A DNA stretch of 64,000 nt from Owenia fusiformis (lineage: Eukaryota > Annelida > Polychaeta > Sabellida > Oweniidae). Location of the stretch: positions 19,110,931-19,174,930 of the forward strand of contig CAIIXF020000003.1 of assembly GCA_903813345.2 (NCBI GenBank), given 5' to 3'. Each line of letters opens with the position of its first letter. Positions within the stretch are counted from its first letter, which is position 1. Below are positions 1 through 49,620 of the stretch, piece after piece. The position numbers were made by a program, and so were the translations under genes. Under the pieces are notes generated by a model. It was not told the origin of the DNA. It was given only the letters and a program-made list of their open reading frames with translations, and ran no database searches.

Positions 1-3000
1 CCACAGGCTCGCATCGTGGCTTATTACATCAAGTTTGGGGAAGTTGTTACTGACGGAATGAACTTCTTTGTTGATGGATCAAATCTGAACCCCGTAAGTT
101 GGAGAAAAATGACCCATACCATTTTGATGAGAATTTATTTTTTAAATTACTGAAATTGACCCAAAACACAGATACAAAAATTATTACTAAGTTATTGCTT
201 ATGTATTTTTACGTGTGAATATTTGATAATCATGCAATATGCAATATTTGTGACTTGATAACTAAGTGTAGTCAATATGATGCAAATATTGATATATTAT
301 AAATTAAAGGTGTATTTCTAATGTCATGTTTGTTAGCTTAGCTAAATCCGAACCAGAATAATGTTATGATACATACAACTACCTTTTATGCATTACCTAG
401 GTAACCGTGACATTCAACAAAGGGAAAGATTTCACATATGATACCATTGAGATCATTGGCAAGACTGACCCAGGATCTTACATTGGATTCTCTGGCTTGG
501 ATTATGATCTCTACAAACGTGGAGCTAGGACCTTCATCACTGAGAACGATGTAAGGAATATAACAGCCTTACACTTGTTTTGAGACTGTATCAAATAGAA
601 TATCAGTAGAATATAGGGATCTTTCTTTCTACAAGTATTTGTAATAAAGTTTGGACAAAATTTATGCTGGGAAAAAACAGAATTTAGGCTTCAGTATGGA
701 ATAGTTTGAACCCGAACAAAATTCATTTCAGTTGATAAAAAGTTCTGTAGATATGTTATCTTTTGGGCCATTATGGCTCACCACATGATGCTGTACAAGA
801 CTTCCATTGCACAAGACTTCCAATGCACAAGACTTCCAATGCACAAGACTTCCAATGCACACGACTTCCAATGCACACGGCTTCCAATGCAATTTGCTAC
901 ACTTAAATGTTCAGTTTTCAGAAATCTTGTAAGTTATGGTATAATGCGGCCAATTGATATATTGTCAATATATTTGTAGATTATGGAAGAGCTGAGTACA
1001 TATGATGACCATGTTAACTCAAGCTATAAGCACACTTGGAAGGGATGGGAGGATGAGGACAGACATGAGTTCTACCCTGCAGGAACATATGGCATTGATG
1101 CAAACACAACATTCTATGTAAGTCTTTTTCATGTGTTCAAAACATATGGCATTGATGCAAACACAACATTCTATGTAAGTCTTCTTCATGTGTATAACAT
1201 ATGGCATTGATGCTAACACAACATTCTATGTAAGTCTTCTTCATGTGTTCAAAACATATGGCATTGATGCTAACACAACATTCTATGTAAGTCTTCTTCA
1301 TGTGTATAACATATGGCATTGATGCTAACACAACATTCTATGTAAGTCTTCTTCATGTGTATAACATATGGCATTGATGCTAACACAACATTCTATGTAA
1401 GTCTTCTTCATGTGTATAACATATGGCATTGATGCAAACACAACATTCTATGTAAGTCTTCTTCATGTGTATAACATATGGCATTGATGCAAACACAACA
1501 TTCTATGTAAGTCTTTTTCATGTGTTCAAAACATATGGCATTGATGCAAACACAACATTCTATGTAAGTCTTCTTCATGTGTATAACATATGGCATTGAT
1601 GCTAACACAACATTCTATGTAAGTCTTCTTCATGTGTTCAAAACATATGGCATTGATGCTAACACAACATTCTATGTAAGTCTTCTTCATGTGTATAACA
1701 TATGGCATTGATGCTAACACAACATTCTATGTAAGTCTTCTTCATGTGTATAACATATGGCATTGATGCTAACACAACATTCTATGTAAGTCTTCTTCAT
1801 GTGTATAACATATGGCATTGATGCAAACACAACATTCTATGTAAGTCTTCTTCATGTGTATAACATATGGCATTGATGCAAACACAACATTCTATGTAAG
1901 TCTATTTCATGTGTATAACATATGGCATTGATGCAAACACAACATTCTATGTAAGTCTATTTCATGTGTATAACATATGGCATTGATGCAAACACAACAT
2001 TCTATGTAAGTCTATTTCATGTGTTCAAAACATATGGCATTGATGCAAACACAACATTCTATGTAAGTCTATTTCATGTGTTCAAAACATATGGCATTGA
2101 TCCAAACACAACATTCTATGTAAGTCTATTTCATGTATTATTAGAGAGATTTCGCAACTCACTTATAGCATGTTTTAATTCCAGTGTAACTTATTATGCG
2201 TTTGATTGCGTCATCATTTATTGTGCTGGTCTATACACCCATAAGTATGATATTCTTACTATTATACTTATAGACCATTTATACTGTATTTGTAAAAAGA
2301 CCCTTTAAATCAAGCCTTATGTAATCTGTGTGTAATTTCAGTATGCTGGGTTAGTGGTTTTCACAGATGCCAATGTGACCAGGTTGCCACATGAGTGTAA
2401 TGAGACTATGGGTTGGTTGCCTTGCTACGACGGCACATGTTATCGTGTTGAGAAAAAATGTGACGAATATGCAGATTGTCTGGATAGAGCTGATGAAATG
2501 GGATGTAAGTCAGCTTTGAATTTATCATTTGCTTTGTTTCTGAATCGTATCTCTTTTTTCTGGAATTAACAAGAATCACTCGTATGTTTTTCCAGAGCTT
2601 TCCAGAATTTCTATTTAGAATGTCCCCATCTAGAGAGATTGTGAGTAAATATATATTTTTCAGTGTATAAACTTATGATTAATTACATCCATAAAATTTA
2701 TTTAGGTACATACAACAGAACCACACCATACCCCCTAACAACACCATTTGAACGTATGAAGCGAATCACTCGTCACTACGAAGAAACGGGATCCTGGCTC
2801 TGGTTGGGGCATTTTGCCAAACCTAACGGCCAAGTTGAACTAAAGGTGGAGCTACCAAAAGAGCCAATGTCATGGGTAGTAGGTGCGTTCAGTATGAGTC
2901 GAGAGAAAGGTCTCGGGGTGATGCAGGAGCCAGCAAGGGTGAGGAATTTTTACATTTTTTCAAAGTCTACAAAGTTCTTTTTCAATAATTTGAAGATTTC

Positions 3001-6000
3001 ATGCATAGAAATGTCATAATACTGTATGTCGTTTAGTATAGTTAAAGAAAAAAGCTGATGCTAGAAAATCCTTGTTATGGTTTTGTCTAGTATTACTCAT
3101 TTTTACTAATATACAATATATAAATGTTACATTGTGATAAACAAATGATGATAAGAATCACACACATTCTGAATTTAGAGAGAATAGAGTAATTATATTA
3201 ACATACAGTTACGCAGTGCAGTAATCTTCTTGCTTTTTTAGTTCCAAGCCACACGTCCATTCTATATCCAAGTTGAGATGCCAGAACTTGTAGTGAAAGG
3301 CGAGATGATTGGAATCAGAGTGGCTGTGTTCAACTACCATAACGAATACCTAGAGGTATGAATATGTAACTCATCTTTGTCACAATAGATATACATATAA
3401 CATCTCACAGAAAGGGAGAATTTGATGAGGGATTCATCGGAACTTGAGAAAGTTTCTCTATCACTGAATTAGGAGCAATTTTAGTGTCTTATCCGTTTTT
3501 CTAAATGTCTAAACTGACTAGCTTAAAATATTCAAAATTATTTTTAGAAAAGTAGCTTCTCAAATGAATTGTGTTTATTTGGTATGATCCGTAAATTTTT
3601 ATAAAAAACAACTGGCACAAACAGTTTAACTTTGAGGTTGAAAAACATTGAAGTATAGCACTTTTAAAAAAAGAATAATTTCATGTTTTCTTTGCAATTT
3701 TAGGCCCTGGTTACTCTGCATAGATCACCAGACTATAGATATGTGATCGTTGAAGAGTTTGGGATCGTCAGCTCTTACGCCCCTCGACTTGGAACTGGGG
3801 ATCTACAGACTCTTGTCTATGTGAGTATTGTATTTTGAGATATTTGAACCATGAGAATAATTACACAGAGAACTCTGAGGCTCAGGAGACAGTTTTTGAT
3901 GCTGGCAATACTTAACAATTACAAATGTAGCTGTGAAACTCAACTCGACTTGTGGCTTTGAGTCATATTCTATTATCACACTGATCAAAGTTTTGGGATC
4001 AATATATCAACCTACACATCCATATATGATTTTCAGGTGGAACCTGGAGAGTATGCATACGTCCATATGCCAGTGTTGCCCATCAAGGACAATTTTGTTG
4101 ATGTTACGGTCAGCGCAACATCTTTCATTGGTGGAGATTCAGTGACTAAAAGGATGCATATCATCGTGAGTAAACTTATTTTCAATCCTTGACAAGATTG
4201 ACAGTTTTGCAGATTTTCTTAAATATGTTTCGAATGGTTTGCCTCAGAAGAGACATTTTCAATAATTATCAGGAAAATTGATGCATGAATTAACATCGTA
4301 ATTATATACATGTTTTATATTGAGTTATGTGTTTGTCTTAGAAACTTTCTGAATCATTCTCTGTAATACAGATATGTACTATAGTTTGATTTTAATACCA
4401 TGTTTATTCCTATATTCCAGTATGATGGCGTCACCAACTACTACAACACGCCATATCTCATTGATCTCATATCCCAGGGTTCCCTCATTATTCCCGATCT
4501 TGAGATTCCCGTCCCTGAGCAGTTTGTCGTCCCTGAGCAAAGAGAGCATCGCTATGTTCCTGGCTCACCAAGAGCATTTGTCAACATTGTCGGTAAGTCC
4601 TGAAAAGTTAGCGTTGAAAATATTTAGTGACGATATAATGTCAAAGCTGTGACTGGTATTTGGCATCCGTGTCAATTTCTCTAATGATTGTTACAATTTT
4701 GTTATCGCAACCAGGAAATAACGTCTGACCTTACAAAACATTAATTTTTCCAGTGCAACACATTTACATTGTGTCAGCATTTTTAATTTACAGTAAATGA
4801 AAATATATATCACTGTGTTTTGTAAAAGTTTCCTCATTGTTCATAGATGTCTCAATTTACATCAATTTGATTACAGATAATTTCAACATTATCAGTCTTT
4901 GTCTCATGAAATCCCCCTATAAATATATTTTGTTTTCAACAGGTGATGTTGTGGGACCTGGTCTGTTCAAAGACTACATTAATGCAGAGGATATGTTAAG
5001 GAGACCATTTGGATGTGGGGAACAATCTGCCTTCAACTTTGCTGCTAACTTATACTACCTGAAGTTCCTCAAGGCAACAAACCAACTTGAACCTAATGTA
5101 ACAACCAAGGCCCTAACATACATGAACATAGGTATGTGGGTTCTTAATTCTGACAATATTTTAGTGAATACATGCAGACTATAATGTGTGCAGAAAAAGG
5201 TTTTACCTAACAGATGGCAATATTAATAGAGATGATGGAACTAGGTCACTGTAGCCTTATTAAAATATTTTTAAAAAAATGCAAAATATTTAGATACAGT
5301 CTTCGATAAATAGCATGTGGCATTGAATTAGATTCAGTGATTGGGTCACTTTAGCCTACTTACACTTAATTGTAGGTCATAAAATGACTAATTTTGACAC
5401 AAATGTTATTCCTTTATAGCATACCAGCGTATTATGAGCTACATGAACGTAACTGACAACTCATTCCATGTTTTCCGTGACGTGAGTAACTCGAGTCTCT
5501 GGGTCACATCCTTTATTGCTGAGGTTCTCAACAAGGCCAGGATCGCAGACTGGGAAAATGACCTATATCCCAGTTGACCTACTGAATAGATTGCTGGTGT
5601 ATGTTTGTGACCAGCAGAACACAACAAGTGGAGCTTTTGAGGCAGTGGGACCATTGTATGATAGGAAAATGGTGGTATGTATTGTATATTTCTGAAAAAT
5701 CTCGGTTGAATAAGATAATGAAACCAAGAGTGGAATCAGCAAGGAATAGCATTAACAGGAATATGATCTTCATTATGTAGATGGGAGATTAGAAAGATGC
5801 AGTTATCATAAGATTGTAGTATACAGTGTTCATTTCCGAAAGGATTTACTCTTAGTCCTTATATTTATGAAATGTCAAATCATGACAAAGGTGGAAATAG
5901 CATGGAATAAGATGAACTGAGATGAAGTCTGTGGTCTGAATCAGTAGACACTCCTGAATATTTTACTCAACTAAAAGTTGTCTGATTTCAGTGAAAAAAT

Positions 6001-18320: not shown

Positions 18321-19046
18321 TTAAAGGATAGTCTCATCTCCCCAAGCTCGAACTGTTTTCACCATATCTACTGTTATTCTTCGCGCAGAGTTCCTATTGT
18401 CACTTCCGTAGCCGTGTATTCCAATGGCCATCCAATTCCACGTGTCCCATGTCCACACGGGGCTCCCGCTTTGCCCACCCTCCGTATCATTCTCATAATG
18501 GAACGTTTTGTAGTCTGATGATTTGATTTTCCCGCCCGCGATCCACATCGTTGATCTAGGGATTTTCCTGCTTGTACCTGGGTAGCCGCAGACGGTGATG
18601 ATTCTGTCACGTAGAGCCGAATCCGACATGACCCTAAATGGGAAACCATAGCCTCCTGGCATCTTACTCTGGATGCGGGGTGGGAGAAAAATCACCCCAT
18701 AGTCGTCACTGGGTCGCCCTCTAGAAGCATTCTCCCAGTTATAAGGCACACGTAGATAGGATTTAGTTACTGTAAAATAACCAAACGGTGTGGTAGAGCC
18801 ATCTCTCCCGGGATAAACGCGTATCTGTTCCGCCCATCCACCCTGATCGTGCACGTAAAGATTGTGGGCGCATGTCAAGATGGCCGATTTGCCACTGAGG
18901 ATGTTACAAAACCATCCTGTCCCGACATATCTGCCTCCTCGCTGTGTTTCGATTTCGAGACGGCAGATCCAATGATACGGTGGTGAGGTACATGGTGTTA
19001 TACGTTGTCTCTCGTCACGTTCTATCACAGATTCCCGACGCATTGC
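18321..19046 (-). other. V8-like protease catalytic exon (241 residues)
   Basis: A single 726-nt exon with acceptor TATTTCAG at its 5' side. It carries, in order, a region WICRLEIET, GTGWFCN, TCAHNLY (His), DDYGVI (Asp) and EGGQSGSPVW (Ser), ending in RAWGDETIL. All three catalytic residues are present, so an active enzyme is plausible. That the catalytic core sits in one exon could reflect a retroposed or transferred origin. Confidence 0.82.
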
Positions 19047-22000
19047 CTGAAATACAAAACATAATTTAGCACTATCATAGAACATAAGGGACAACAAGCC
19101 ATACGATCGATGTAGGTCTACAAGTCATAAAGCTACATCAGTCTACCATCACAATGGTCAATAGACCAAACTACAACATGATAACGTTTCCGAGCCCCGG
19201 AGTAGAAGTGATACAGTATCTAAAGATTTGTGCATAAAAATACTGAAGAAAATTTTGATTCTAGGCTTTGGTTATAAGAAAACATACATACATATGGTAT
19301 TTCGTTTTGAACACAGGGGCTTGGCTCGAGTGTCGGGCAAGCCCTCCGATGAGTATGTACTGGTTATTAAGAGTATAAGTACTGGTTATTAAGAGTACAC
19401 ATTCATCGGAGGACTTGCCCGACCCTCCAGACAAGCCCCTATGGTTTTGAACATTAATACTGGCCATTGGGTTTGTGTAAAAAACCGGGTGACCGGGTAA
19501 CCGGGTAGCTGGGAGACCGGGTACCTAACATTCCTAGCAGGGTTACCAACTTTCAAAGTTTAACATTTTCCCTGATATATAGTAGCGAATTGACTTGACA
19601 GACTAAGCCTACCGAGTGCACTACTGTTCGATATTTTTTACCCTATAAGAGACAGAGTACTTTTTAAAATAATCGACACAGCAAACAGTGACGTCCATGT
19701 CACGCTGGTCATTAGTTGCGTTGTCAAAACGTTTTTTCGATGTGAAATAACCTCAAAACGTGACGTCCATAGTGGCGTTCATGTACCGTATTGATCTGAC
19801 GTTATTCAAATATTCAGCAAAACGTCGATGGATGGTATAAAAAGTACGTTGTAGAAACATATTCGTAAAGTTCGTTAGTGTAGAAAACGTAACAGGGATG
19901 TTTCATTTTTACCTTATTGGTTAATTTTCGAGGTAACATAAACGTTTTATTTCAACATTGTGTGGAAATGGCTTCAAAATATTTGTAAGTTAAGAAAACG
20001 TTACAAAGACGTTATGCTCTCACTAAGGTTAAAAGTTAACGTCACCCGGTTTTTTACACAAACCCCTGGCCATTCTTAGAATTTTTATTGGCTTTTGATA
20101 GGAGAAACAATTCTGGGTTTGGTTTACTAGGGTAAACATCCCACTTAGTGCGATCTATAATTTCTATACCAACCTCTACCATTGGGATATCCTCAATCTC
20201 CGCCGCACTTCTCTCTGCACCATCTTTTTCATCGGGACTATCTACATCGTCTGCAAATTCCGTGACCTCGATGCTATCTACATCCGGGTCATCGAGGGTG
20301 AAATCAACGGGATGAGGTTGTGTCTCGGGGCAGGAGAAAGTATCTGAAACAGAAAATAAACGTTCTCGTTACGGTATACAATCATTTGTAAACGATAAGT
20401 AGGGTCAGAATATAAATAATTAGTTTTGAAACACTTAAACTTTATTATTTCCCAAACCATAAAATAAGCTACATTTCCAGAATTAGTGACATTTAGACGA
20501 GGAAGAAATTGAAATAAGAGGCTGTTTTAAAGGTTGACCCCCCTCTTCGGTTTAGCAGGCTGAAATTAGGCATACTTCACTGTGATACTTGCAGAGGAAG
20601 ATATACAGATTCGCCTATTCTGACAATACATATTTGGTCATCCATGGGTAGCGTGGCCAATGCATGAGTTCCTGGGTTACCCTGAGCATCATATCCCAGC
20701 CATGCAAGGGAAACGGGAAAATGTGATAGAGATACATTTTGTGTGCAATAAAATAGTGCATCAAATAAGAAATAATTATTGCATCAAAGATAGATATGAC
20801 GTGCACGGACCTGGGGACAATTCGGGAAATACGGGCTAATCTCAGCTTTGAGCGTTAATCTCTGCCTTATTTAAAAAGCTAACTATGTGTTTTATATATC
20901 ATTTTAAAGTATTTTTTATTCGCATTTCAGTGAAATTATTTTTCCTTCAAAATTTTGATGGGATCCAACATTTTTTTAAAGTTAAAAATATCCAGACATC
21001 GTCAAATACGCTGTAAGACGTAACACTTTACGCTTATAGGGCTCGTTGAAATTGAGATAACTTTTGAAATAATGATCAAAATCCCACTAAAATTTCACAA
21101 TTTATTCAATGGAACATATTCATTTATGACGTCACAATTGCTTAACGGCTCCCGCTCAAATTATCTTATATGAACGCTTTTAAAATTTTCAAAATTGTGT
21201 AAGGTTTTGAAGGCGAATGGGACGAGCAATAAGTTTACCTTTATTTAACCTTCTAATTTAAGTCTGATTTGAAAGAAAAATTAACTGCACAATATTGTCA
21301 TTGCGAAATTTACAAAACAATAATCAGTTTGTTTATTTTGCAATTAATATTAAAATAAGAGCTGGTTTTCGAGACTTGAAAAAAATGTGACGCATCGATT
21401 TTTTACCACAAATTCCATACATATCAATTTTTACCAACGCCCCGAGTGGATTTCTTGACCGTTTTTCAAAATTCAAAAACATTTTAGAAATATTGTCCTC
21501 GAGATCTTGCTACCCTGTGAATTTCGTCATGATTAGATAAGGATAAAGTATTTTATTTTTAGGTTGACTAAACTTGACAAAAATGTGACGCTTGTCGTTT
21601 TTGACGTTGTAAGGCTGTTTGCGCCCTATGCTGCTCATTGTTTTGTCTTAGTTTTTGACGCCATAATGTTACGCTAATTGTCCCCAGTTTCGTGCGACGT
21701 GTAAGAACATTATCAACAATCAACTGAAACGACACTTACAACGCGTAATATCTCTGTCAAAATCGTGCAATGACATTGATCATTTTCACACGCGGCATGT
21801 GGGGGCGGTCATTATGAAACACCCTGTACATTTTTAAATGAGCAATATTGGCCATGAAAACATTTTATAAAGATAGGTTTTGCAGAGACTACAAGAAATT
21901 TGACACTTGTTTCTATTCAAATTTAAAACAACACGCACATAGTTGAATTAAACAATTCTAACCATGGTATAAGGCATTGCCCTTTTATTGGAAGAAAATC

Positions 22001-43112: not shown

Positions 43113-44139
43113 GATATAACATAGATATTGTCCAGGTAGGCAAGGTAAAATGAGTAATCTGGTAAGCTATTAAGGTTTGCATGCAGATGTAATACACACA
43201 TTGGACCATTTGGTTGAAATAGACCAACCTTAGGGAAACTATTCACCATTAAGATGAGGTGTTAGTGTCTAGGCCACAGACTATATGTTTCACCTTTTAA
43301 AAGTGAAGGAATAACCCAGAATTCATACATGAGCCTGTCTTGAAAAGATGAACCTTGAAGTTACTAAGTAACATTGTATGTAGGTGCTTGTTTGAATTCT
43401 GGGTTCCTCCCCCTCTTATCTTGTTAACATTTCATTACATTATGGATACTATAGTGAATATGCATGCGTGCCAACAATGTATATTGTATACTATGTATAT
43501 GTATGGGCTCTGTTGATAGCCAATGGTGTATGCTACGTGTGATTGTTTTTGGATACCTGAATGCATTTTCTATTATTTTATACTATTTTATAAAAATATA
43601 TGGACATTTTGTAAGTCATTCAATTAGAAGCATGGGAGAGTATATTCACATTCAAATGGTGTTCTAGCTATTGTAATATGAACAATGTATTCTCTCTAAT
43701 GAGCGCACATTTACGGGGGTACTACAGTGGTGACATCTAGATTTTCTCTTTTTGTATGGTCATTATTTGCTGAAGAATGCTGGATAATCACATGTAGTGT
43801 AACCTTGGTTAGAATACCATTTGACTGTAAATATACTCTCGCTGTTAATTAGGGTTTGTAAGAATTTCTAGCATGAGTATGAAATATCTAGTCTAAGTTC
43901 TCATGTGTCATACACTTGCAAATAGCATTGTAGTATCTTGTAGTAATCTTGGTCTAGAATTATCATTTCATTTATATGGTTTTGTATTGCAATATTCTAC
44001 ATATATTTTGGTATGATATTAATCAATGTATTGCATTGCAATATCATAAATATGTTTGATATTGCGATACAAGCATCATAAAAATTGGTTTGATATTGCA
44101 ATAACATTTTGATAAATTGGTGCTACAATATCATAGAAA

Positions 44140-44490
44140 TGATTTGTTGTTGGTATTATATCAATATCAAAGAAATGATTTTGTGTTGGTGTAATATCAA
44201 TAGCACAGAAATTATTTGATGTTGGTATAATATCAATAGCACAGAAATTATTTGATGTTGGTTTAATATCAATATCATAGAAATGATTTGATGTTGGTAT
44301 AATATCAATATCAAAGAAATGATTTGATGTTGGTATAATATCAATATCAAAGAAATGATTTGATGTTGGTATAATATCAATATCAAAAAAATGATTTGAT
44401 GTTGGTATAATATCAATATCACAGAAATGATTTGATGTTGGTATAATATCAATATCACAGAAATGATTTGATGTTGATAAAATTTCAATA
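44140..44490 (+). repeat. 36-bp minisatellite, about nine copies
   Basis: The unit contains ATGATTTGATGTTGGTATAA followed by TATCAATATCAAAGAA. The 12-codon period keeps a minus-strand frame open as a shadow (YQHQIISLILIL repeats). No coding role is supported. Confidence 0.9.
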
Positions 44491-44499
44491 CTGTTTGTT

Positions 44500-44980
44500 A
44501 CTATAATATCTTACAATAATTTTAGTACTATGTTACCAAGTAAATGTTTCCAGCTGATTTTATCAAATAAATAAAATATCTGTTGTTTTATATAAAGTGT
44601 TTGTATAGAGAAGAGTTGTACTTGAACTGTTTAAAAATACAATGTATACAAATATACTGGATTGAAAAATGGACGTTGGACGGAAAATATGGAATCTTGA
44701 ACTTAAAAGTATATTTATATTTTCTGGAATTTAGTCTTCATTAACTCAATAATATCTACATATCTATATATATATAAAGGTATAACGTCATAATGTGCAA
44801 ATTAAATGATAATCACTTACCTGAAGAATAAAAGTGAAACCGGTAGTGACTGAATTCATGTGGGGCTGATGGCAAGTAACCTCATATAGAAGCAATGCTT
44901 CAACATTGACTCAACATTGTTTTTACCTGGCAGAGTACCCTAAATATCAAAGCGTAATAAATCCAGGAGTATTACATGTA
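44500..44980 (+). repeat. Upstream copy of the serpin 3' flank (partner 49000-49620)
   Basis: Shared words in the same order: TCAAATAAA, TTTTATATAAAGTGTTTG, AGAGAAGAGTTGTACTTGAA, GACGTTGGACGGAAAA, GGGGCTGATGGCAAGTA and TTGTTTTTACCTGG. A segment of about 120 bp is inserted in the downstream copy. It may be the last trace of an upstream serpin duplicate. Confidence 0.8.
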
Positions 44981-45729: not shown

Positions 45730-48700
45730 ATGTTGAGAGTGTTGGTATTGGTCTACTTGGTGTTTGAAGGGACAACCGTCAACACTACACCCATTGGGGA
45801 TTCAATCAATGGGTTTGCATTGGACTTGTACAATGAGATATGTGGGAGCTTGGCTGGTTCAGATAACGTGTTTTTGAGCCCGTTTAGTATCTCAACTGCT
45901 CTTGCAATGACATACCTTGGAACTGCTGGAAATACGGCAACAGAAATGGCAACTGTTTTGAAGTATCCACCAAATGTGCACGTTCTGTTCAAGGCTCTTC
46001 TGACAACCATAAATGCACCGAATGACAACTACACATTGAACGCTGCAAACAATCTATTCCCACGAACAGGTTTTGCTATTCTGTCTCAATATGTAACTGA
46101 TGTCATGAACTTTTACTTTGCTACAATAAAAGAGCTGGACTTTGCGGGACAGCCAGAACCTTCCAGGCAGTACATCAATGAATGGGTCTCTAACATAACA
46201 ATGGAAAAAATACCTGAATTGTTGCAAGTAGGTGATATCACCCCTTTAACTGTTCTTGTACTAGTGAATGCTATCTACTTCAAGGGAGAATGGCAGAATC
46301 CATTCAACCCTGACCTCACAGCAATATCTGCCTTTAATGTGACACCAACTCAGCAGATTTCAGTTGCTATGATGTATAACGTGAGCATGTACAGATACTT
46401 TGAAGACACAACACTAGATGCTAAAATATTAGAATTGCCGTACACAGGGGAGGAAGTAAGCATGATTATTATTCTACCAAATCAACAAGATGGCCTAGCT
46501 GACCTAGAAGCAAACCTAACATTGAGTAAATTAAATGCTGCCATCAATAATCTCTACGCCCCCTACACTGCAAATGTAGTTAATGTATGGCTGCCAAAGT
46601 TCAAGATTAAATTCAGGTCTGAATTAGGTGAACATCTACAGGACCTTGGAATGGTGGACGCATTTAATGCAGGTGCTGACTTCTCACCACTTTGTGGATT
46701 ATGTAATGTCAGAATCAGCAAAGTTATCCATGAGGCATTTGTAGAGGTGAACGAGGAGGGTAAGAACATCCTTATTATATATTTACAGCCAAATAGAACG
46801 CCATGATTCTACTCTAATAAATGGTTCACCAAAAGTATATGTACTAGCCAATGAAAAGCAGAGATTCTATACTAATCCCGGGTTAACCAATAGTACATGT
46901 TTTAGCCAAAGAAATGCATTGATCCTATTCTAATCAATGGTTAACCAAAGGTATATATACTAGCCAATGAAAAGCCTTGATCCTGTGCAAATTCATGGTT
47001 AACAAATAGTATATGTACTAGTCAATGAAACACTTAGATCCTATACTAATAAATGGTTAACCAATAGTACATGTACTAGTCAATGAAACACTTAGATCCT
47101 ATACTAATAAATGGTTAACCAATAGTACATGTACTAGCCAATGAAATCCTCAGATCGTACACTAATCTATGGTTAACCTCTCCCTTATCATAAGAAGTAG
47201 TCAATGTCTGTTGTTTCTACAGAGGAGAGATTTTAATATTATTGTTGTAGGCACAGAGGCTGCGGCTGCCACAGCGGTCATTATCCTAAAAGGAGTTCCC
47301 CGTCCTAAAATATTCAGAGCAAACCATCCATTTCTCTTTCTGATCCGTCACAAAAAATCTGGCTCCATATTGTTCATGGGACGTATCACATCACCAAGTA
47401 AGTGCTACTTTCTTATTGGTTATCATAGGTACAGAGGCTGCTGGGGTAACAGCTGTCATTATCCGTGAATCGGTGCCGGAGCCAATAGAATTCAAGGCAA
47501 ATCACCCCTTTTTGTTCCTCATCAGACATAAAGCATCGGGGACTATCTTATTCCTTGGACGTATTACTACACCAACAGTTGAAGGCAAGAATACTTTTAA
47601 TTTTATATAGTGGGAATACAGTTTTACAACATCCTCTGAATACAGGGATCCAGAACTTGCACCTTCTTCCAGAAGAAGGAAGGAACATAGTGAATGATGT
47701 CTGGGGCCTGCATTTGGAGGATGTCATTTTCAGTTGAAAACACCGGCACCATTGAACACATTCTCCAAACACAGGCCTCCAGAACGTGTACCTCATAGAA
47801 GGAAGGAACATAGTGAATGATGTCTGGAGCCCTGTGTTCAGAGGATGGTTCTACAAAAGCTCTGCCTAAAGAAATTCTAGAAAGTAAAATGTATTTTTTC
47901 ATTCAAATCAAAAGTTCTGAGATTATTCATGAAAATGAATTAATAAACCTGGATATATTTGCTTACTGTACTTCAACTTAATTTGGCATGACTTATTTTG
48001 GTGGATTTGCTGTTTTGAACATTTGGGAGCGACTTAATTTGGCGGACTTGGAATTATACAATTCTAATAGTTCTTATTTACATTGTACTTAAATTCCCAT
48101 GAATTTTACTGGCTTCTTAATCTGGAGGACTTAAACTGTTAAACAATTTGGCCAAATTAAGTAGAAGTACAGTATTAAATCTTTCATGTACCTCAAAGTT
48201 TATTAAACTTGGATTGTTAGGGACATAATGGCATGATCTCTGAAGACTTTCAATCTCATATTTTGTCCCAGATAATCGTCCTTTACTGCCACTTTAAGAT
48301 TAATTGCACATTTGATAATTATACTCCATCTTATAATTGACAATGTTCTAATGAAGATGCAGAGGAAGAAGAAGAAGAGAGTTGTTTAACAAAGAAACCG
48401 TGTCCCAGACGAAAGGGGAAACTGCACAAAAAATGTTGTGGTTGTCCATATATGTTTAAGGATCCAGTAACCAAGGTAATTAGAAATATAAAGAACATTA
48501 AAAAAGGGCAGTCGTATAATAAAGAAAAGATATGTCCAAACAAACTATCTAATGTACAAAGAAACAAAGTTGAATGGCTCCCTTCACCTACCATTCAAAA
48601 ATGATTTTCACAATTCAAAATGAAACACTCAATTTAACATTTTAGAAAATTACATTTCCCATGATTGTGTTGAAGAAGAACAGGGGAAAAGATGTGTGTA

Positions 48701-48753
48701 GGGAAGCGTGCCTGAACAAGAAATGTCTGAAAATGTTCACTAAAAGAGGATAG
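45730..48753 (+). CDS. Secreted serpin with alternative reactive-loop exons and Cys-rich tail
   Basis: Serine-protease inhibitor. Exon 1 (45730-46759) encodes a signal peptide ([14 protein letters not shown]) and most of the serpin fold, including [10 protein letters not shown] and NAIYFKGEW, ending at the hinge VNEEG with donor GTAAG. An in-frame ATG at 45664 would bury the signal peptide. The loop and last strands come from either exon A (47251-47397) or exon B (47429-47584); both start and end in phase 1. Tail exons 48363-48475 (or from 48357) and 48646-48753 follow in phase and end at TAG. Predicted length is 465 residues with A, 468 with B. The intron 46760-47250 holds a 58-bp tandem repeat. 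The first 343 residues are certain; the tail is inferred from phase agreement and splice sites. Confidence 0.85.
46800..47185 (+). repeat. 58-bp tandem repeat, about seven copies, in the serpin intron
   Basis: Each unit holds AATGGTTAACCAATAGTACA and TACTAGCCAATGAAA with variations. Confidence 0.85.
47251..47397 (+). other. Serpin reactive-loop cassette A
   Basis: Encodes hinge TEAAAATAV, loop [12 protein letters not shown] and the conserved [20 protein letters not shown] then FMGRI. The P1 region is L-K-G, so Lys is the likely P1; counting from the hinge would give Gly. Acceptor TTGTTGTAG, donor CCAA|GTAAGT. An unspliced reading would add about 20 residues before a stop. Confidence 0.88.
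47429..47584 (+). other. Serpin reactive-loop cassette B
   Basis: Encodes hinge TEAAGVTAV, loop [12 protein letters not shown] and [20 protein letters not shown] then FLGRI. The P1 region is R-E-S in place of L-K-G, so the target protease should differ from cassette A. Acceptor ATCATAG. The only phase-correct donor is GAAG|GCAAGA, a GC-AG type; reading through ends at TAG 47608-47610. Either fate is possible. Confidence 0.85.
47617..47850 (+). repeat. Two diverged copies of an approximately 127-bp segment
   Basis: AAGGAAGGAACATAGTGAATGATG and GTCTGG recur at about 47677 and 47799 with similar flanks (CCAGAAC before, GAGGATG after). Non-coding, between the cassettes and the tail exons. They might be the remains of further duplicated sequence. 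Confidence 0.7.
48363..48753 (+). other. Serpin tail exons: acidic run then Cys-rich basic domain
   Basis: Exon 48363-48475 starts with a run of five Glu, then [20 protein letters not shown] and GC. Exon 48646-48753 gives [20 protein letters not shown] and ends KRG-stop. Eight cysteines and many Lys/Arg occur in about 70 residues. Both junctions fit the phase of the serpin cassettes. The first acceptor (ATGCAG or, 6 bases earlier, ATGAAG) lacks a strong pyrimidine tract. I do not recognise the domain. Confidence 0.62.
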
Positions 48754-48999: not shown

Positions 49000-49620
49000 T
49001 AGATTGGAACTACAGTATCTTATAATAAGATAAGTATTTTATTACCATGTAAATGGCTGAACTTATCAAATAAAATATCTCTTGTTTTATATAAAGTGTT
49101 TGTATATTTCATTTTTATGACATAATATTGAACTTTCATTTAATAATGATAATATACACAAACTGCAATTCATGAATTCACAATAATTTACAATGTATGT
49201 AGATATATAACTCTATAAATAGAGAAGAGTTGTACTTGAACTGTTTAAAAATACAATGTAAATACAAGATTGAAAAATAGACGTTGGACGGAAAAGATGG
49301 AATGTTCTTGAACTTGAAAAAACATTATTCTAGACATATAATACCATTTCCTTTTGAGTCTTCAATAACTCAGCCATATCTTAATGAATAAACATTTGGG
49401 GGAAAATCTTATTCCATTGATATAAATATTCATATGGGGCTGATGGCAAGTACAAGTATTTTTATAAATTGAAATTATATAACCAATGTATGTCCAATGT
49501 TTTGTTGTGTTTTGGGTTCAACCACATAATGAATTTAACCAATGATTTAAGATTATTTCAATATTGTTTTTACCTGGTCGTATAATACCTTTCATTCCAT
49601 AATACTACTGTTTTCCCTGG
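49000..49620 (+). repeat. Downstream copy of the serpin flank duplication
   Basis: Partner of 44500-44980. It begins about 250 bases after the serpin stop and overlaps its probable 3' UTR or poly(A) region. Confidence 0.8.

Follow-up and report, generated by a model that had tools for sequence, protein, structure and literature searches.

The serpin gene described here lies on the plus strand of a 64,000-nucleotide stretch of Owenia fusiformis DNA (the window, C3:19110931-19174930) and carries two adjacent, homologous exons for the reactive loop. The question raised by this locus is whether a single inhibitor scaffold is fitted alternatively with two baits, and what would keep both loop exons out of the same transcript. 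An earlier note on this DNA had proposed a mutually exclusive pair. From searches of the 498-Mb assembly and comparisons between paralogues, we consider the most probable explanation to be that two reactive-loop cassettes are used in a mutually exclusive manner and that steric exclusion enforces this choice, with a probability of roughly 0.85. The part of the gene concerned is organized as follows, with positions counted from the first letter of the window.

Core exon, 45730..46759, plus strand: start codon, signal-peptide-like N-terminus and serpin body up to loop-hinge residue P16 (EVNEE|G)
Intron 1, 46760..47250, plus strand: 491 nt long, filled largely by a 58-nt tandem repeat
Cassette A, 47251..47397, plus strand: reactive loop plus C-terminal part of the serpin core; 147 nt, starting and ending in phase 1, with the GT donor CAA|GTAAGT
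Gap, 47398..47428, plus strand: 31 nt, holding the 5' splice site of A and the 3' splice site of B
Cassette B, 47429..47584, plus strand: reactive loop plus C-terminal part of the serpin core; 156 nt, starting and ending in phase 1, with the GC donor GAAG|GCAAGA

The core exon, whose start codon and signal peptide were called by eye, has an open frame, matches positions 2-320 of the Pfam Serpin profile (PF00079) with 321.9 bits and ends at the donor GAGG|GTAAGA after position 46759. Either cassette completes the serpin domain, since A and B alone each match positions 321-370 of the 370 in the profile, with 56.1 and 52 bits, respectively (cut-off 27). The coordinates of both exons and their assignment to the part of a serpin from the hinge to the end, as given in the earlier note, were thus confirmed. 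The spliced A form finds serpins among the solved structures, with 4ga7_A as the best match (E 2e-80), and the predicted isoforms comprise 467 (A) and 470 (B) residues. The gene looks like one for a secreted inhibitory serpin, with predicted secretion and protease trapping.

The intron ahead of the cassettes splits the codon of the P15 glycine, and consequently the cassette contains the hinge, the loop and the C-terminal strands. Inhibitory serpins carry Gly at P15, Thr or Ser at P14 and small residues at P12-P9. Both cassettes follow this rule, with a Val at P9 of B, less usual among inhibitory hinges, as the departure. The two cassettes are 73% identical over 49 residues, and 6 of their 13 differences fall in cassette residues 13-21, which form the loop (counted by eye). 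As homologous neighbours that start and end in phase 1, with which the phases of the downstream tail exons are compatible, A and B are in-frame alternatives; neither contains a stop, and no other disabling change, the sign that would have spoken against the proposed pair, was found in either of them.

To see how common such pairs are, we surveyed the genome with the Pfam Serpin profile, which yielded at least 101 exon-level matches, among them 37 loop exons (starting at profile position 312 or later). A loop-exon profile was built from 34 of these 37 exons, located at 31 places (C2:8020835, later termed L031, C12:15535183 and C483:238434 were left out). Two loop exons occur at three of the 31 places, namely in the window, on C9 (L006) and on C1 (L005), and a single one at the remaining 28. 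Scanning 26 fetched regions and the window with the profile, a scope beyond which weak extra cassettes could be missed, revealed no further intact second cassette; beyond the 34 exons, it returned a remnant at locus L018 (E 0.045) and five short matches (E 0.038 to 160) that were taken for chance. The serpin matches on C483:224486-238622 pair with those on C2:17806059-17817396, one pair with equal and others with nearly equal scores, suggesting either a duplicate or a second haplotype that was left uncollapsed.

The three two-cassette loci lie on different chromosomes and have the same order of A, gap and B. The cassettes of L006 measure 147 and 156 nt with a gap of 31 nt (29 of 31 positions identical to the window), and those of L005 measure 138 and 150 nt with a gap of 32 nt. 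Together with the profile scores, the recurrence of the layout at two paralogous loci makes its origin by chance unlikely. It also means that the two-cassette layout is not unique to the locus for which it had been noted. The flanking introns vary in length in the window, L006 and L005 (491, 220 and 358 nt for intron 1, and 772, 433 and 237 nt for the intron after B). The much longer intron 1 of the window, compared with L006, coincides with the 58-nt tandem repeat at 46814-47178 (6.3 copies), which fills most of it. Its repeat units carry TACTAAT-like, branch-point-like motifs, recognized by eye, that could be candidate branch points upstream of cassette A.

In the core, A and B, the window and L006 share 88-89% identity, and their aligned intron parts are 85-88% identical, hardly below the exons. 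They are therefore recent copies whose agreement in gap length is not independent, and the distant L005 weighs more. In comparisons with L005, synonymous sites are at or near saturation, and whole-intron identities between L005 and the others, which came from a gap-tolerant alignment, were set aside. A tree of 33 serpin cores (open reading frames of 200 residues or more; L004 was dropped as a duplicate of L007, and L031 gave no core) placed the three two-cassette genes in one well-supported clade (98/98), and a branch with support of 89/86 (90% of bootstraps) set apart the seven serpins with the tail described below. In a tree of 17 chosen cassettes (49 residues), 3 of the 14 inner branches were well supported, and neither the three A nor the three B cassettes were recovered as clades. 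As this alignment is too short to settle which cassettes correspond, the orthology of A with A and of B with B rests on the donor type, on the extra codons at the end of B, which are present in the window, L006 and L005, and on the order.

The donor type separates the two cassettes at all three loci: A ends at GTAAGT and B at a GC donor, in the context AAG|GCAAGA at two loci and AAG|GCAAGT at one, each time in phase 1. The coordinate given for the end of B in the earlier note implied this GC donor without naming it. B could instead be a last exon, read past the GC site and polyadenylated, so that a tail-less isoform would stand beside an A form spliced to the tail; in that case, the switch would decide whether the inhibitor carries the tail. 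The lack of a GT donor behind B fits this possibility, as do a stop met by read-through 8 codons past the GC site and AATAAA/ATTAAA hexamers at 47942, 48174 and 48202 in the intron after B. However, three such hexamers occur in intron 1 as well, neither the peptides added by read-through nor the positions of their stops agree among the loci, and the good GC-donor context in phase 1 is kept at 3/3 loci, including the distant L005. We therefore regard a terminal B exon as improbable, though it is the best of the alternatives.

If B is spliced onwards as the mutually exclusive reading predicts, the strong GTAAGT donor of A and the weaker GC donor of B would set the balance between the two forms and may give a regulatory handle. 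In let-2 of C. elegans, a GC donor was essential for regulated splicing, and putting GT in its place suppressed that regulation (secondary account in the excerpt of PMC7242645). As let-2 is a collagen gene that has the principle of splice control alone in common with the serpin, regulation of this kind would be an analogy here.

A second alternative is that a single cassette is in use, the other being a decaying tandem duplicate. To evaluate this, we looked for remnants at five single-cassette loci with a tail, using shuffles in blocks of three bases, with counts that are uncorrected for multiple tests. When the stretch after the cassette was compared with the gap and B of the window, 4 of 300 shuffles scored as well in L031, pointing to a possible remnant of the start of B, while no resemblance was seen in L011 (231/300 shuffles as good), L021 (96), L022 (131) or L018 (131). 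When each locus's own cassette was compared with its upstream DNA, the match was clear in L018 only (0/300), and not in L021 (14/300), L011 (69), L022 (148) or L031 (196). L018 (C1:38.04 Mb) contains a decayed cassette at about 1818-1893 on the reverse strand, approximately 37-41 nt upstream of the working cassette (about 1930-2075), and appears to represent a pair lost in the sister subclade. Cassettes are therefore sometimes lost, in line with the duplicate explanation.

The substitution pattern in the window argues against such decay. Between the window and L006, the core has a dN/dS of 0.32, cassettes A and B have values of 0.39 and 0.33, and tail exon C has 0.14; tail exon D, with 0.71 from few sites, is not clearly constrained. 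When the same number of substitutions was placed at random, 179 of 5000 trials for A and 31 of 5000 for B stayed free of stops with equally few residue changes. In A and B pooled, nonsynonymous changes affected about 11 of the 49 sites in loop codons 11-21, compared with about 8 of the 177 sites outside them (p = 0.0003 by Fisher's test, from rounded counts and with loop boundaries set by the analyst), and synonymous changes were even between the two (p = 0.74). Both cassettes thus look constrained outside the loop, with amino-acid changes concentrated in the loop, the pattern expected of two working inhibitors with changing baits. The dS between A and B is 2.3 within the window and 1.09 within L006, compared with 0.29 between the cores of the two genes, so that the cassettes look older than the duplication that separated the window and L006. 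With both window cassettes open and apparently constrained, and with a pair that seems to predate this duplication and persists at three loci, we judge a decaying duplicate to be very unlikely.

The distance of 31 nt between the donor of A and the acceptor of B, which the earlier note had pointed out, was found to be correct, and the sequence of the gap is GTAAGTGCTACTTTCTTATTGGTTATCATAG. This is below the usual length of an animal intron. In human genes, a donor and a branch point less than 50 nt apart are regarded as a case of potential steric interference, and 57 clusters (9%) of a survey had such a potential distance (PMC5740500); the excerpt of this source names no serpin among the human exons concerned. 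In the mutually exclusive reading, the constant core exon would be spliced to A or to B, and the chosen cassette then to tail exons C and D. Binding of U1 at the 5' splice site of A and binding of U2 at the branch point for B would hinder each other, and A would not be joined to B because the two sites share the same 31 nt; this length presumably blocks splicing in this animal. Since the cassettes are multiples of three, the reading frame would not prevent double inclusion, and the short gap appears to be the visible built-in safeguard against it. Inclusion of both cassettes, through a 31-nt intron or with the gap retained, would be in frame in the former case (147 + 156 nt), yet it is hardly credible given a gap shorter than the human steric criterion (PMC5740500, same excerpt), the frame shift and the stop inside B that gap retention would cause, and a double loop and C-terminal strand that are not expected to fit the serpin fold. 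Taken together, the phases, hinges, open exons, constrained substitutions and gaps of 31, 31 and 32 nt support the exclusive choice that had been proposed.

The account given in the earlier note ended at the cassettes. We found that the gene continues with two constant exons that encode eight cysteines in total:

Tail exon C, 48357..48475, plus strand: acidic run and C-x5-C-x10-CC-x-C; starts in phase 1 and ends in phase 0
Tail exon D, 48646..48753, plus strand: C-x3-C-x4-C, then stop TAG

Exon C has an alternative in-frame acceptor 6 nt downstream, and its splice sites were matched to L005 and L006. Both exons were accepted as part of the gene because similar exons adjoin other serpins downstream. 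When the genome was searched with an initial version of the tail, 21 matches had E values of 1 or less; two are the window's own, and eight closely follow serpin loop exons at seven further places:

Tail matches behind loop exons (tail search): C9:24.37 (two), C1:52.89, C2:8.02, C12:24.21, C5:26.68, C9:23.19 and C1:38.04 Mb

Counterparts of exon D are present in L005, L006, L011 and L031, the loci checked, and the tail is common to at least seven serpins in the genome. The other 11 matches were weak (E 0.018 to 0.61), with seven at C7:27.07-27.18 and three at C6:38.19-38.23 Mb. Two of these sites that were inspected, L032 (C7:27.157 Mb) and L033 (C6:38.230 Mb), contain an exon related to exon C with the motif CCGCP.MF.DP, outside serpin loci, with phases equal to those of exon C by eye and more weak copies nearby; a Pfam search of the tail-like exons at C7 and C6 gave one sub-threshold transposase match. 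For the tail itself, Pfam listed no match with an E of 10 or less, with program filters that drop most weak matches, and there was nothing convincing among solved structures, where the only PDB match had an E of 9.9. The tail is the mark of a serpin subfamily and lacks a described Pfam domain match. The two baits would share one scaffold and this one Cys-rich tail.

Which bonds the baits offer depends on the register of the loop. Counting by eye from the P17 Glu, position 16 of cassette A is K in the window and L006 and R in L005, and it is K or R in the single-cassette loci L011, L021 and L031 and neither in L018 and L022. In cassette B, the same position is E in the window and L006 and W in L005, followed by S, T and S, respectively. 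We infer that position 16 is P1, so that the hinge falls one residue short of the canonical 17. C1-inhibitor and alpha2-antiplasmin are precedents for such a shortened hinge, and these precedents, together with the recurrent K or R (absent in L018 and L022), are the grounds for the shifted register; the canonical count, which would place Gly (A) and Ser (B) at P1, is less likely. The shifted register suggests Lys for A and Glu, followed by Ser at P1', for B in the window.

Cassette A would accordingly present a Lys-Gly bond to trypsin-like proteases. Cassette B would most likely present a Glu-Ser bond, and its targets in the window and L006 may be Glu-cleaving proteases, either Glu-specific or granzyme-B-like; SERPINB9 is a precedent for Glu at P1. 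The B form of L005 would be directed at aromatic-cleaving proteases. With these P1 residues, trypsin-like proteases, against which the earlier note had suggested testing each form, are expected as targets of A only and do not fit B.

Other features of the window were recorded alongside the serpin gene. An open reading frame at 18327-19124 on the minus strand, 27 kb from the gene, encodes a protein similar to bacterial glutamyl endopeptidases of the V8 kind, with 1qy6_A as the best match (E 8.9e-10). It matches Pfam Trypsin_2 with 28.5 bits (cut-off 27.6) and has a GIH motif whose His we take to be the Glu-binding residue. No second copy was listed genome-wide at E up to 0.001, where one candidate was scored. 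The proximity of a V8-like protease to a serpin with a possible Glu bait was noticed after the fact and is suggestive only. Exons of an alpha-2-macroglobulin/thioester protein lie at 2648-5181 on the plus strand, with matches to A2M (30.6 bits, 2648-3013) and to TED_complement (44.3 bits, 4804-5181), the latter with a GCGEQ motif. Upstream of the serpin gene, a 36-nt tandem repeat occupies 44126-44490 (10.1 copies, 93% matches), and direct-repeat pieces about 4.6 kb apart, at 44500-44930 and 49009-49577, flank the gene. The similarity to the C9 paralogue ends approximately 20 nt past the stop codon, before the downstream direct-repeat copy.

Splice-switched serpin loops are already known in insects, nematodes and urochordates, and the title of Kruger et al. 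2002 reportedly refers to insects and nematodes; the intron position and the tail differ here. Manduca serpin-1, Bombyx serpin-1 and Pteromalus PpSerpin-1 resemble the present gene in joining one constant core to one of several exons for the loop and C-terminus, and the dN/dS of the alternative exons of insect serpins is above that of the constitutive exons (excerpts of PMC10513286 and PMC5691223). Manduca serpin-1 has 14 copies of the alternative exon (PMC5691223, excerpt), and all 21 C-terminal forms of PpSerpin-1 were confirmed by RT-PCR (PMC10513286, excerpt), in contrast to the two cassettes 31 nt apart, followed by constant tail exons, found here. In 161 of 192 insect genes, the switch site lies one base downstream of the hinge (excerpt of PMC10513286), whereas the intron here lies eight codons earlier, in the P15 Gly codon, with the hinge inside the cassette. 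The pair would thus work like the insect-type cassettes, but common descent with them is not supported. Drosophila Spn42Da (Spn4) likewise places alternative loop exons with different protease targets on one scaffold, but has four of them together with alternative signal-peptide exons, and the excerpt of PMC4006314 mentions no Cys-rich tail; similar loop splicing is reported there from nematodes and urochordates. Among the titles and abstract openings screened in the open-access literature, we found neither a splice-switched annelid or mollusc serpin nor a serpin with a Cys-rich tail.

The most far-reaching version of these findings, in which a compact two-state switch independent of the insect one, made up of the shared 31-nt splice region and the GC donor, would alternate between a Lys and a Glu bait on a secreted inhibitor with an undescribed Cys-rich tail, and the Glu form would restrain V8-type proteases such as the nearby one, is as a whole unlikely. 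If the mutually exclusive loop switch itself is confirmed, it would represent serpin bait switching at an intron position unlike the usual insect one and in the simplest, two-exon form, for whose dissection a small minigene would therefore suffice. The three paralogues with their nearly equal gaps would provide a natural test of steric exclusion combined with a GC donor, and the predicted contrast between Lys and Glu makes a direct prediction on the targets of the two forms.
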